Positions 6,915 to 46,149 of a stretch of DNA of 64,000 nucleotides are shown here, one piece after another; the stretch's first letter is position 1, and every line of letters begins with the position of its first letter. Made by a program: the position numbers and the translations under genes. The stretch covers positions 1,282,001 through 1,346,000 of the forward strand of contig NZ_CP152003.1 in the NCBI RefSeq assembly GCF_038595065.1, given 5' to 3'. Origin of the DNA: Sutcliffiella sp. FSL R7-0096. Its GTDB lineage: Bacteria > Bacillota > Bacilli > Bacillales > Bacillaceae_I. The notes under the pieces are model-generated. The model was not told the DNA's origin and did not search any database. It was given only the letters and a program-made list of their open reading frames with translations.

Positions 6915-7640
<726 letters not shown>

Positions 7641-7641
7641 T

Positions 7642-7712
7642 CACTCGTAGTCAAGCCATTTACGGTAGCTTGGTAGAGACTTGTAGGCCATATTCCTACT
7701 ATTATACGAGTT
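7642..7712 (-). promoter_or_regulatory. Guanine-class purine riboswitch aptamer (xpt)
   Basis: On the minus strand the canonical blocks occur in order: ACTCGTATAAT, ATATGG, AAGTCTCTACC, CCGTAAATGG, GACTACGAGTG. The specifier residue is C (GACTA rather than GATTA), which predicts guanine/hypoxanthine rather than adenine. P1 pairs CTCGTA with TACGAG. Confidence 0.95.
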
Positions 7713-7742
7713 GTTATATGGAGTTGTTTGGATTATGAAGTG

Positions 7743-9579: not shown

Positions 9580-9613
9580 AAAATGAAAGATAATTGTTCA
9601 TTATCTTTCATTA
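9580..9613 (-). terminator. Distal copy of duplicated terminator hairpin with T tract
   Basis: A 12-base perfect stem AATGAAAGATAA / TTATCTTTCATT with loop TTGTTCA. On the minus strand it is followed by TTTTTT. Its 34-base sequence recurs exactly at 9822-9855, on the other side of a family A element. Confidence 0.9.
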
Positions 9614-9821
9614 CAGTGTGTAGACAAAGCTTAAAATAATGAAATTCTCAGTTGATCGCAGTGGAAGGAGCGAAGACTCCTGCGGGAGGAAAGGACATGG
9701 AAGACCCCGCAGGGCGTAGCCCGAGGAGGCTTCCGGACTGCCCGCGGAAAGCGAAGCTCCTGCAACGGAGATCAACTCTTCCAACAGATAACCTAACTAG
9801 TTTATAGTTTGTCAACAGTCT
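9614..9821 (+). mobile_element. Family A non-coding element, copy 2
   Basis: 208 bp with the same ends as copy 1 (CAGTGTGTAGACAAAGC and GTTTGTCAACAGTCT) and about 95 percent identical inside by eye, including GGAGCGAAGACTCCTGCGGG. It separates two identical 34-base copies of the terminator hairpin of the 9843-10511 gene. Relative to the terminator's direction it is inserted in the opposite orientation to copy 1. Confidence 0.85.
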
Positions 9822-9855
9822 AAAATGAAAGATAATTGTTCATTATCTTTCATTA
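9822..9855 (-). repeat. Proximal copy of duplicated terminator hairpin
   Basis: Identical to 9580-9613. It overlaps the last three codons and stop of the lipoprotein gene at 9843 and has lost its T tract to the inserted element. Confidence 0.88.
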
Positions 9856-10511
9856 ATCTTTATTAATTTATGAACATCTTTTAATACCTCTTCTTTAATT
9901 TCATGCCGGATCCATCCTACGTGTGGGGCGAAAACTGAACTTCCTTTACGTAGTGTGTTGCCATCCTGGTCCTTTTCTTCGAAATCAATAATGATACAAT
10001 CCTTGAACGTCTTAGCAGGTGTTTCGATTTCAGCATTTATTGACCTGATATGATAAGTGATATCCAAGTCGAAATCCTCTATTGTTTCGGTCCATTCTTT
10101 ACTTTCTTCCAGCGGGTAGGCAATGATTTTCGTTTTAGGGAATTTTTTAATATCATCTGCATCCCATTCTGTTGGGAAGTCCTCCGATAAAACGATATAT
10201 CCATAGATGCCATCTTTCTTCTCTTCATAAAAGTTGATCGTTTCCGAAGTATCTGTTGAAGAGTCTTCGGAACCTAGATCCACAACCGTTTTCACTTCTA
10301 CAATCTGGCTGTCTGGAACCTTGCTATAAAGCACCCTGTATTCTGTGTGCTCCTTTTCTTCAATGTACCTTTGAAAAGTATAATCCCCTGTCGATGGCAG
10401 CAAAGGTGGTGGTTCTTCAGCATTACCCGGAACACCTTCAATGGCAGAACCGCACCCAATAGTAACGGCTGAAATGATACTAATAAAAAGAATAATGAGT
10501 ACGTTCTTCAA
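9843..10511 (-). CDS. Putative lipoprotein
   Basis: 222 residues with a lipoprotein signal peptide: MKN, hydrophobic core, lipobox VTIGC with cysteine 20. A short proline-rich linker (EEPPPLLP) follows, then a predicted beta-rich domain of about 180 residues with no motif I know. It should be anchored to the outer face of the cytoplasmic membrane. TTG start at 10511 with GGAGGGG seven bases upstream. Its 3' end runs into the duplicated terminator. Function unknown. Confidence 0.72.
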   Translation of the reverse strand: MKNVLIILFISIISAVTIGCGSAIEGVPGNAEEPPPLLPSTGDYTFQRYIEEKEHTEYRVLYSKVPDSQIVEVKTVVDLGSEDSSTDTSETINFYEEKKDGIYGYIVLSEDFPTEWDADDIKKFPKTKIIAYPLEESKEWTETIEDFDLDITYHIRSINAEIETPAKTFKDCIIIDFEEKDQDGNTLRKGSSVFAPHVGWIRHEIKEEVLKDVHKLIKINER

Positions 10512-10577: not shown

Positions 10578-11010
10578 GGCTCTGTTAAACACGCTGGTGA
10601 TTTCCGCACTAGGCTTCGTTTTCCTAGGGGCGTTTGGGGAGCCTCCTCGGCTTACGCCAAGGCCACTGATAAACCTAATAACTTATCTTTTTTATGGTTT
10701 CTAGCTGTTGATTGGAGCAATAGGCGAAGACTCCTGCGGGGGGATAGCGACAATCTTGAGACCCCGCAGGGCGTAGCCTGAGGAGGCTCAAGGTCGCCCC
10801 GCGGAAAGCGAAGCCGTTTGCGGAAATCAACAGCGGTGTTAACCAGATTATTAAAGTTCATTACTTTTTCAGTGGCCACGCTTGCGCCTGCGGGGTCTCC
10901 CCTAAACGCTATCTCCCTCAGGACAAGGAAGGCTTCGGCAGCAAAACATCGCACGAAGAAAATGCGGCAACATTGTTGCTGCATAATCAACAGCATGCTT
11001 TAACAGAGCC
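10578..11010. mobile_element. Family B composite element with 8-bp target duplication
   Basis: 433 bp bounded by inverted ends GGCTCTGTTAAACACGCTG and CAGCATGCTTTAACAGAGCC. The 8-bp sequence TAGTTATT is repeated exactly on both sides (10570-10577 and 11011-11018), a clear insertion footprint. No transposase gene is inside. A second element (10661-10877) is nested within it. The insertion hit the stop codon of the 11010 gene: the original TAA became TAG using the element's terminal G. Confidence 0.85.
10661..10877 (+). mobile_element. Nested family B-inner element
   Basis: 217 bp with inverted ends GGCCACTGATAAA and TTTTTCAGTGGCC, containing the palindromic core with CGAAGACTCCTGCGGGG and GAGGAGGCTCAAGG. 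Related copies occur at 14755-14941 and 53226-53499, so it moves independently of the outer element. A GCTTACGCC/GCTTGCGCC near-duplication lies two bases outside its ends. Confidence 0.7.
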
Positions 11011-18832: not shown

Positions 18833-18977
18833 AAACGATCATAGAAAGGGAGAATAGAGGAAGGGGGGATCCTAAAACCGTGCCAACGGGATGTTGGGTC
18901 CGGATATACCTGCTCTTTCCATATGTTTCTAGTGATCGTTTCATCTTCTCAACTCCCGAAGAAAGAGAAACTAATCG

Positions 18978-19153
18978 CTAAAGGCAGGTCTCCTGACTCA
19001 TGCTTCTTCCTATCTTGATCCTTCCCATATAAGAGCCGTTAAGCCTGTTTATACAGTGGTTTTTCAAGATCGTCTGCACTTACAGTTGCGGGGACAGTTC
19101 CGGAGTTTCACCAGATTCCCTATTAAGTCTATTAAAAGACACCTTTACCGCAT
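18978..19153 (-). promoter_or_regulatory. Cobalamin (B12) riboswitch upstream of nrdAB
   Basis: Minus strand carries the cobalamin aptamer blocks in order: TAAAGGTG, GGGAATCTGGTGAAACTCCG, GTCCCCGCAACTGTAAG, CCACTG near the central helix, and GAGTCAGGAGACCTGCCT. It is followed by a strong terminator, so B12 should switch nrdAB off. By precedent this is found where a B12-dependent class II reductase can replace class I. Confidence 0.95.
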
Positions 19154-19164
19154 TATTAAACAAA

Positions 19165-28223: not shown

Positions 28224-28259
28224 CAGAGAGAATTACCCCACTTTAAATTGGGCGGGGTA

Positions 28260-28328
28260 TCTCGTAGTCAAACTCTTTACGGTAGTTTGGTAGAAACTTA
28301 TGGACCATATCTCCAAGATTATACGAGT
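28260..28328 (-). promoter_or_regulatory. Guanine-class purine riboswitch aptamer (adeC)
   Basis: Blocks on the minus strand: ACTCGTATAATCTTGGAG, ATATGG, AAGTTTCTACC, ACCGTAAAG, GACTACGAG. The specifier is C (GACTA), so guanine or hypoxanthine, the product of AdeC, is the expected ligand rather than its substrate adenine. Confidence 0.93.
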
Positions 28329-28616
28329 AGTTCTATATGAGTATTTTTTGATAATTGTTCCTCATTATAGAAGGGGAAGGAATGGGAGTCAAGTACGAAT
28401 ATATTGGCGAAAAATTTCGAATATGGGTAAAGGGGTTCCCTTTTGTTGAAAAAGGGTATGTAATAGTGTTTAAGTTATAGGAATGTTATCATCAACATGT
28501 AATTTTTCTATAACTATCATAATGAATCATTTGGGGGTTTATGCACGTCACCCTAAAAAAGAAAGGTTTCATTTCGAATAACTATGAATATTTTGTTGCA
28601 CATATAGGAGGTTCTT

Positions 28617-34548: not shown

Positions 34549-34589
34549 AGGTATCAGAAATTGCTTTCCGACAACTCGATACGAATCTA

Positions 34590-34679
34590 CCACTAGGGGT
34601 GCCTTTATAAGGCTGAGATTGAAGTGTGACTTCAAGACTCTTAGAACCTGATCTGGTTAACACCAGCGTAGGGAAGTGG
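34590..34679 (+). promoter_or_regulatory. TPP riboswitch 1 (tenA-ykoEDC)
   Basis: THI-box blocks: CCACTAGGGGTGCC, GGCTGAGATT, GAACCTGATCTGGTTAACAC and CAGCGTAGGGAAGTGG. CTAGTG at 34715-34720 can pair with CACTAG of helix P1 and so act as antiterminator. Confidence 0.95.
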
Positions 34680-34726
34680 GGTCGAAAACACTATACTTTT
34701 AATGTTCAGTTGTACTAGTGAATTCA

Positions 34727-38355: not shown

Positions 38356-38380
38356 GAAGCCATCAATTGAATAACTCGTA

Positions 38381-38471
38381 ACACTGGGGGAGTCAATAGT
38401 GACTGAGATGGAAAGAGTAATTTCCAGACCCTTTGAACCTGATCTAGTTTGTACTAGCGTAGGGAAGTGGA
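38381..38471 (+). promoter_or_regulatory. TPP riboswitch 2 (tenI-thiOSGFDE)
   Basis: THI-box blocks: ACACTGGGGGAGTC, GTGACTGAGATGG, CCCTTTGAACCTGATCTAG and CTAGCGTAGGGAAGTGG. Confidence 0.95.
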
Positions 38472-38512
38472 AATGTTCTATCACTGTTGGCTATACATAC
38501 CACACATAGATG

Positions 38513-45649: not shown

Positions 45650-45716
45650 CAAATTAGCCACAAGTTAAGATGAAAAGGGGGGAGAATTGGAGGTATTTAT
45701 CCAAGAAAGTCAAAAC

Positions 45717-45745
45717 AAAAAGGCTCCCATCACTGGGAGCCTTTT
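45717..45745 (-). terminator. Terminator of the cold-shock gene
   Basis: Minus strand AAAAGGCTCCCA, loop GTGA, TGGGAGCC, then TTTTT. Confidence 0.9.
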
Positions 45746-45762
45746 ATATGTTGTGCTATAAA

Positions 45763-45963
45763 TTATGCTTTGTTTACGTTAGCAGCTTGGTCGCCACGGT
45801 TACCTTGAACGATTTCAAATGTAACAGATTGACCTTCTTCTAAAGATTTGAAACCTTCGCCTTGGATCGCTGAGAAGTGAACGAATACGTCGTCTCCGTC
45901 TTGGCGCTCGATGAATCCGAAACCTTTTTCTGCGTTAAACCATTTTACTGTACCTTGTAACAT
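45763..45963 (-). CDS. Cold-shock protein (CspB/CspC type)
   Basis: 66-residue single cold-shock domain that binds single-stranded RNA and DNA. RNP1 KGFGFIER and RNP2 VFVHFSAI are present. ATG at 45963 follows TAGGAGGTAACAAC; the frame upstream is leader. As in other csp genes the 5' leader is probably long (no other gene lies in 45964-46120). Which paralogue cannot be told. Confidence 0.95.
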
Positions 45964-46149
45964 GTTGTTACCTCCTAGTGTGCTTACCACACAATGTATT
46001 ACTATTCTTGCTCTTAGAAATATCAAGGCGAAAGTTAAATCTTAACTTTGAATCCTTACATACCGAACAAAAATAATTCTTCTTAAGAATAACAGTTTAA
46101 TCCAAAAATAGCAAGGGGAGAACACAAATGCCCAAAACTGCGTGGGACT

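Follow-up and report, generated by a model that had tools for sequence, protein, structure and literature searches.

A MITE family of Sutcliffiella with IS1182-type relatives lies between duplicated, mostly terminator-like hairpins

Copies of a short repeat in the genome of Sutcliffiella sp. FSL R7-0096 mostly lie between direct repeats that are themselves hairpins, and full-length insertion sequences with matching ends duplicate hairpins in the same way. We consider it likely that the repeat is a non-autonomous MITE of one clade of the IS1182 family, the transposase of which would join the element at the 5′ feet of a cruciform, with gap filling then duplicating the stem-loop. For the clade as a whole we lean, with less assurance, towards DDE transposases that take the geometry of strand transfer from a four-way junction, so that joins at the 5′ feet of extruded cruciforms give a duplication without fixed length.

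The window analyzed here, a stretch of 64,000 nucleotides, corresponds to positions 1282001–1346000 of a single 4.9-Mb contig and contains two copies of the element, both read on the plus strand. The copy at site 1 (1225–1435; ends CAGTGTGTAGACAAAGC...GTTTGTCAACAGTCTG) is flanked by an exact 19-bp repeat, the hairpin GCACCGCTTCTAGCGGTGT, at 1206–1224 and 1436–1454. The right hairpin is followed by a T-tract and forms a putative terminator downstream of the plus-strand gene at 269–1096. The copy at site 2 (9614–9822; ends CAGTGTGTAGACAAAGC...GTTTGTCAACAGTCTA) is flanked by a different hairpin, AAATGAAAGATAATTGTTCATTATCTTTCATTA, which is identical at 9581–9613 and 9823–9855. Here an A-tract precedes the left hairpin and marks the putative terminator of the minus-strand gene at 9843–10511. 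This gene is an open reading frame of 222 aa that looks like a lipoprotein by eye, and the target hairpin overlaps its 3′ end. The sequence-only reading had placed the two copies in opposite orientations relative to the terminator, and the tracts agree with this, the T-tract lying to the right of the element at site 1 and the A-tract to its left at site 2. It had also given the duplication at site 2 as 34 bp and its hairpin as a 12-bp stem with a 7-base loop. The flanking copies are indeed identical, but they measure 33 bp if the element ends on A and 34 bp only if this ambiguous A is assigned to the target; the terminal A is a feature of a sub-group, and most copies have G. The palindrome is likewise the one described, although a 13-bp stem with a 5-base loop fits best and the earlier version is a shorter cut of it. 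The end of the minus-strand gene is intact at site 2 because the right hairpin copy holds its last codons and stop (from 9843). The gene end was thus retained by the right copy and the tract by the left copy, and an insertion that replaced the hairpin would have lost both.

Throughout the genome, the element measures about 209 bp, and its ends follow the pattern CAG..TGT.GACAAA / TTTGTC.ACA..CTG. It has the properties of a MITE, being short and multi-copy, with terminal inverted repeats, a target duplication and no transposase gene; the open reading frame list of the window contains no frame of 80 aa within it, and it is too short for a transposase. A DNA search of the genome gave 45 matches with at least 40 full-size copies, and searches with the end motifs added further copies among the matches listed. 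From the 67 stretches fetched we obtained 64 candidate end pairs, in which one copy occurs twice, and thus at least 63 distinct copies. A repeat score of at least 15 was reached in 51 of the 64 listed pairs (50 of 63 distinct copies), compared with 3 of 4032 mismatched pairs of left and right flanks. Under a strict rule (≥15 bp and ≥90% identity), 48 of the 63 candidates have direct repeats of 15–33 bp, 30 of them identical. The idea of a hairpin-duplicating element, first formed on the two copies in the window, therefore survived the genome-wide survey of direct repeats. The remaining 15 candidates fall below the 15-bp/90% criterion. Some of them (e.g., L026, L049, L051, and L052) are older copies in which the hairpins on the two sides have diverged from each other, and diverged hairpins also occur at both junctions of the second L054 copy; others (e.g., L085, L095, L098, and L100) miss the hairpin foot at one junction. 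L015 is the only case with a 15-bp repeat, and the right copy of its hairpin is only half present. At L049, L086, and L032, the two hairpins have diverged in sequence and both still pair, a pattern as though selection acts on both copies.

The window also contains a second MITE-like repeat at about 10666–10875 (ends GGCCACTGA...TCAGTGGCC), which is located inside another, GC-rich repeat. Similar ends are found in an IS1182-like element of genome G006 (the L060 group, with ends GAGGCCACTG and the 8-bp repeat CAACGAAG), which lies in GC-rich cores too. The GC-rich core GAAGACTCCTGCGGG...CCCGCGGAAAGCGAAG is present at about 10700–10830 and inside both copies of the MITE (family A) in the window. 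Across the genus it is also found where family A ends are absent, in the manner of a module common to different elements.

Orthologous loci in related genomes show the target before insertion. At site 2, 8 of 10 congeneric relatives (G004, G005, G006, G007, G008, G011, G013, and G014) have a single hairpin and no element, the hairpin of G004 being ATGAAAGATAAGTCAAATTATCTTTCAT, and elements are present in G003 and G009. Among the ten stretches compared for site 1, G004 has one matching hairpin and no element, G014 and G012 have a single but different hairpin at the same place, G003 and G009 have elements, and the remaining five stretches are without a call. The view that the hairpins are host target and not part of the element, taken earlier from the window, is therefore upheld by element-free sites with one hairpin. 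In G003, as read from the sequence by eye, both sites carry the element in the orientation opposite to that in the window, each flanked by two identical hairpins of the version found in G003, which points to at least two independent insertions at each of these two terminators. The element of G009 at site 1 is also in the opposite orientation, and one of its hairpin copies is incomplete; at site 2, G009 has the element in the window's orientation with another MITE nested inside. This nested copy (L150) is of a second MITE type, sits in the family A core and has, by eye, a short palindromic repeat at its ends.

Full-length relatives of the MITE were found in the same genus. A search of 16 genomes with the Pfam model PF05598 gave matches in seven genomes at 29 loci, and at six of these (in G003, G008, and G012) MITE-type ends lie 1498–1563 bp apart with hairpins on both sides. 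The repeats are identical at five of the six loci, and the left copy is shortened at L067. The transposase from G008 (locus L058, 448 aa) scores 477.4 bits with the IS1182 model NF033551 (cut-off 270), and its matches to PF05598 and PF13751 both exceed the cut-offs. Since full-length relatives with matching ends encode an IS1182-family transposase, the link to this family that the sequence-only reading had tentatively raised is confirmed for these relatives. Residues Asp148, Asp275, and Glu402 are invariant across 14 aligned transposases, and by their motif context we read them as the putative DDE catalytic triad. In four copies of a 1563-bp, hairpin-duplicating insertion sequence in G012 (L056, L063, L068, and L072), the transposase is split between two reading frames (193 + 254 aa in L056), possibly through a programmed frameshift. 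The predicted structure of the transposase was too poor for use (mean pLDDT 53), and comparison of its sequence with solved structures gave one match, to a ribosomal protein (E = 0.083).

The G008 protein was further scanned over a collection of species genomes, from which 80 of 463 loci were kept. At six of these the two ends could not both be recognized, the flank was cut by the contig end in five, and 69 were measurable. Repeats of 19–42 bp, identical in 60 cases, flank 62 of the 69 measurable copies (hereafter IS sites); the longest, at L233, is a 42-bp palindrome with 19 pairs. Seven copies have no repeat, and four of these have poor ends. The two ends of the repeat-less copy L238 adjoin different hairpins, and at L234 and L235 a clear hairpin is present on just one side; products of this type would be expected from recombination between copies. 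The transposase search also gave a match on a plasmid of Sutcliffiella horikoshii (NZ_CP082921.1, positions 65472–66815). Among six further records, the plasmid copy L326 has a hairpin duplication of 24/24 bp and the phage-borne L331 one of 21/22 bp, and in L327 and L328, also on plasmids, the hairpin at one end differs from that at the other. For L329 and L330, no pair of matching ends was found. L329 is a copy of ISEfa7, an IS1182-like element of Enterococcus faecium plasmids with 58.9% transposase identity; it has the left end CAGACTGTAGACAAAG, and beside this one opened copy there is no matching right end, hairpin or repeat.

Profile searches of the MITE's own genome with PF13751 and PF05598 detected no intact transposase. 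A search with an IS1182 protein gave one weak remnant (E = 1e-5 over 55 residues), and a search with the IS1182 model gave two weak remnant matches (best E = 2.7e-6). The MITE and the insertion sequences have matching ends and the same insertion mode, and these searches of the MITE's own genome found transposase remnants only. One such remnant of an IS1182-type transposase (L285, located at 1214000–1217500; 55 residues, 36%) lies near a hairpin-flanked CAG-type end and is possibly a relic of the MITE's former helper.

The direct repeat itself is a hairpin, defined by Watson-Crick pairing at seven or more of its outer eight positions, at 43 of 48 MITE sites and 56 of 62 IS sites, compared with 134 of 200,000 random positions of the same lengths. 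As proposed from the window, the length of the duplication follows the hairpin and no fixed number: lengths vary, and the two are correlated over the 51 listed sites (Spearman 0.96), where the hairpin was taken from the right flank alone with one side bounded by the element border, so that the coefficient shows symmetry about the hairpin and not, by itself, an end at the last pair. A fixed-length duplication was ruled out by the observed range of 15–42 bp (15–33 bp for the MITE and 19–42 bp for the insertion sequences). At successive positions inward from the cut, pairing was found at 38, 45, 47, and 44 of 48 MITE sites and at 48, 58, 59, and 59 of 62 IS sites; outward from the cut, the corresponding numbers were 27, 30, 18, and 21 of 48 and 49, 42, 38, and 34 of 62. 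The repeat spans the stem-loop, and the cut is located at the stem base and does not always coincide with the last possible pair. Since the A- and T-tracts on the two sides pair with one another, the cut commonly falls inside such A/T pairs. The outermost pair of the repeat is A..T at 38 of 48 MITE and 46 of 62 IS sites. Among exact repeats, however, it is a different pair in 6 of 30 MITE and 14 of 60 IS cases, and this variation indicates that the outermost bases are duplicated target and not element. Across sites, the stem sequences have nothing obvious in common.

Most of the targets resemble Rho-independent terminators. Forty of 48 MITE hairpins have a T- or A-tract (T or A at 5 of 8 bases) next to them, compared with 13 of 48 at thirty bases distance (Fisher p = 4e-8), as do 56 of 62 IS hairpins, compared with 14 of 62 (Fisher p = 7e-15). 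In 38 of 49 listed MITE rows, a raw count in which one copy is listed twice, the end of a gene points at the hairpin. MITE copies point either way relative to the terminator about equally often (20 right, 19 left, and 9 ties), and the orientation of the insertion sequences does not deviate significantly (28 right, 17 left, and 17 ties; p = 0.14). The earlier suggestion that terminators are recognized by their structure stands in so far as most targets are terminator-like; the cut, however, fits the base of a DNA palindrome, and 8 of 48 MITE and 6 of 62 IS sites have no T/A-tract by the above definition. A terminator is therefore the usual but perhaps not an obligatory target. For either direction of transcription, a hairpin copy bearing the T-tract would remain beyond the element and the putative terminator would be kept. 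If transcription continued through the first hairpin, which has no tract, it would reach a complete terminator-like site about 210 bases further on. An Rfam scan of the window gave no match at the MITE. Elsewhere in the window, it matched at 7628–7729, 18966–19161, 28245–28346, 34585–34691, 38376–38482, and 45715–46094, comprising two purine, one cobalamin and two TPP riboswitches and a cspA thermoregulator.

Hairpin duplication is confined to one part of the IS1182 transposases sampled. IS1182 transposases were sought in 299 genomes of the phylum, and element ends were set by comparison of copies in 19 groups. The elements of G036, G154, G052, and G218, which have ends related to CAGACTGT, duplicate hairpins, and the other 15 groups show no hairpin repeat. 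Non-duplicating groups include elements with GGGGCTGTCC-like ends (e.g., in G165, G219, G292, and G110). Short repeats of about 5–6 bp occur in G131, which is outside the tree, and 8-bp repeats in the L060 group, and no repeat was found at the GAGGCTGGGAC-ended pair L062/L066 from the same genus as the window. A scan that uses no end motif detected a hairpin repeat in 28 of 30 duplicating rows, with L180 and L214 labeled as duplicating from the end-based measurement of IS copies and not from the scan; it gave 0 false matches in 3192 cross pairs. Chance repeats are thus ruled out by this control as well as by that with mismatched flanks.

For the transposase tree, 60 loci were chosen and 57 used, L309, L320, and L071 being left out because they had no match to the query protein. 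Thirty rows were labeled as duplicating, 22 as non-duplicating, and 5 of the 57 stayed unlabeled; the label "no hairpin duplication" means that boundaries were derived from several copies or that the scan found none. A single branch (support 100/98) divides the 30 duplicating from the 22 non-duplicating rows, with one change of state and none of 500 shuffles as low, in a tree with some long branches according to a tool warning. The duplicating rows have open frames of 434–512 aa in 29 of 30 cases and the non-duplicating rows frames of at least 520 aa in 16 of 22, both as stop-to-stop lengths. L277 was labeled as non-duplicating despite a 31-bp hairpin repeat that the scan found near it. At L277, L304, and L305 (G249), a different IS1182-like element apparently lies inside a CAG-ended element that is flanked by this repeat, and we read the repeat as belonging to the outer element.

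The repeats may be explained as follows. A DDE transposase, apparently no longer intact in the MITE's own genome, would act in trans on the MITE. In standard DDE chemistry the 3′ ends of the element join to 5′ ends of the target. The two 3′ ends would here be joined to both strands of a target palindrome, each at the 5′ foot of a cruciform hairpin arm, and the two feet would lie together at the four-way junction whatever the length of the arms. Gap filling would then produce a target duplication as long as the stem-loop (19–42 bp in the full-length elements). Rho-independent terminators, as common intergenic palindromes, would be the usual target. Target-site duplications of DDE transposons are generally of fixed length, reflecting the spacing of the two active sites. 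We propose a cruciform because joins 19–42 bp apart on linear DNA are hard to square with one fixed active-site spacing, whereas the feet of a cruciform are adjacent. This explanation, which we regard as the best one, assumes that stems of 7–14 bp extrude as cruciforms in vivo. Among 770 stem positions, the mismatches comprise 13 G.U/U.G (in RNA sense) and 16 A.C/C.A, and the lack of a G.U bias is a weak sign that both DNA strands fold. The pairing that continues outside many cuts counts against a strict version of this mechanism.

The same observation would suit a different reading, which we judge to be clearly less probable than the cruciform but worth weighing. A dimeric transposase, or proteins or stalled RNA polymerase at terminators, might read symmetric half-sites in duplex DNA with flexible spacing, so that cuts are symmetric near the outer ends of the palindrome and no cruciform is formed. 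Pairing beyond the cut is frequent (the base next to it on the outside still pairs at 49 of 62 IS sites), the A start and T end of most repeats (38 of 48 and 46 of 62) amount to a small sequence component, and the T/A-tracts at most targets, together with the gene ends that point to the hairpin in the raw count of MITE rows given above, would be in keeping with factors bound at terminators. Against half-sites speak the stems without obvious common sequence and the cuts that are still symmetric about the hairpin at lengths of 19–42 bp, as well as the unbiased orientation of the MITE to the terminator; the mismatches without G.U bias (13 versus 16 of 770) point weakly in the same direction.

A further reading starts from IS1272, a member of the IS1182 family that is reported by Furi et al. 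(2016; PMC4923244) and by Wan et al. (2017; PMC5678879) to insert into hairpins, some of them confirmed terminators, and to delete or replace them without duplication. If the elements studied here did the same through joins at the 3′ feet, the flanking hairpins would need another explanation. The transposase family and the targeting of hairpins described in these papers are shared, but the sections of both that we used report no target duplication for IS1272, whereas here both hairpin copies are present and are identical at 30 of 48 MITE and 60 of 62 IS sites. Removal of the hairpin is thus contradicted for the hairpin-duplicating clade, with duplicates at 48 of 63 MITE candidates and 62 of 69 IS copies, and we consider this reading very improbable. 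That the hairpins are the element's own long, imperfect ends, as their direct contact with the ends at most copies might suggest, can be dismissed almost entirely, since the hairpin sequence changes from site to site, element-free relatives have one hairpin of local sequence, and the outer bases vary with the site, with pairs other than A..T in exact repeats (6 of 30 and 14 of 60).

The direct repeats of IS1182-family elements are tabulated as 0–60 bp. ISPse1, an IS1182 element of Paracoccus, is tabulated with what reads as a 4-bp duplication in the portion of PMC3281130 used here, so that the family is mixed. Among the closest known systems is IS1272/TnSha1 of staphylococci. Like the elements studied here, it is described in the consulted sections of PMC4923244 and PMC5678879 as having an IS1182-family transposase and as inserting into hairpins that are poorly conserved in sequence, in both orientations and repeatedly at one terminator; RNA-seq confirmed some of its targets as terminators, and some of its targets are non-palindromic (PMC5678879). 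The difference lies in the product, as IS1272 reportedly deletes or replaces the hairpin and the present clade, with ends CAG..TGT.GACAAA, duplicates it. In the model of Wan et al. (2017; PMC5678879, Fig. 13), joining at the 3′ feet replaces the hairpin, as proposed for IS1272, while the hypothetical pathway b of the figure legend, with joining at the 5′ feet, would duplicate it, and a third branch with joining at the loop would duplicate the loop. The whole stem-loop would be duplicated in pathway b as it is here, where A/T-tract pairing often extends beyond the repeat. The part of PMC5678879 at hand presents pathway b as hypothetical and without an example, and 110 sites (48 MITE and 62 IS) with its product are described here. 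That some IS1182 members target palindromes is attributed in both IS1272 papers to Siguier et al. (2015), with the remark by Wan et al. that detailed data had not been given.

Like other bacterial MITEs (e.g., RUP, BOX, and QMITE), the element is short, non-autonomous, derived from an insertion sequence and present in many intergenic copies. MITEs in general have short duplications of fixed length. The sections of a MITE review (PMC10969869) that we used mention no MITE that duplicates a terminator, and a search of the open-access literature for terminator-targeting or hairpin-duplicating insertions found none that fits beyond the two IS1272 papers. As far as we have seen, the family and its targeting of hairpins are known, and the duplicating product, predicted but apparently undocumented in the open-access literature, here marks one clade.

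A duplication length that is dictated by the structure of the target over at least 19–42 bp suggests that the transposase measures structure and not distance. The branch that remained hypothetical in Wan et al. (2017) now has natural products at 110 sites, and because one branch splits duplicating from non-duplicating relatives, the switch between the two can be mapped on the protein. The element also provides a means of asking whether short palindromes extrude as cruciforms in living cells. Elements of this kind may be misread by annotation in which short repeats of fixed length are expected. With one hairpin and the original T-tract left beyond the element, insertions would be nearly neutral, which would have helped the family to tens of copies and may explain how a repeat can become this numerous at gene ends with little damage. 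If this is true, the element would be a near-harmless "terminator parasite" that regenerates its target terminator, and possibly an in vivo recorder of extruding palindromes.
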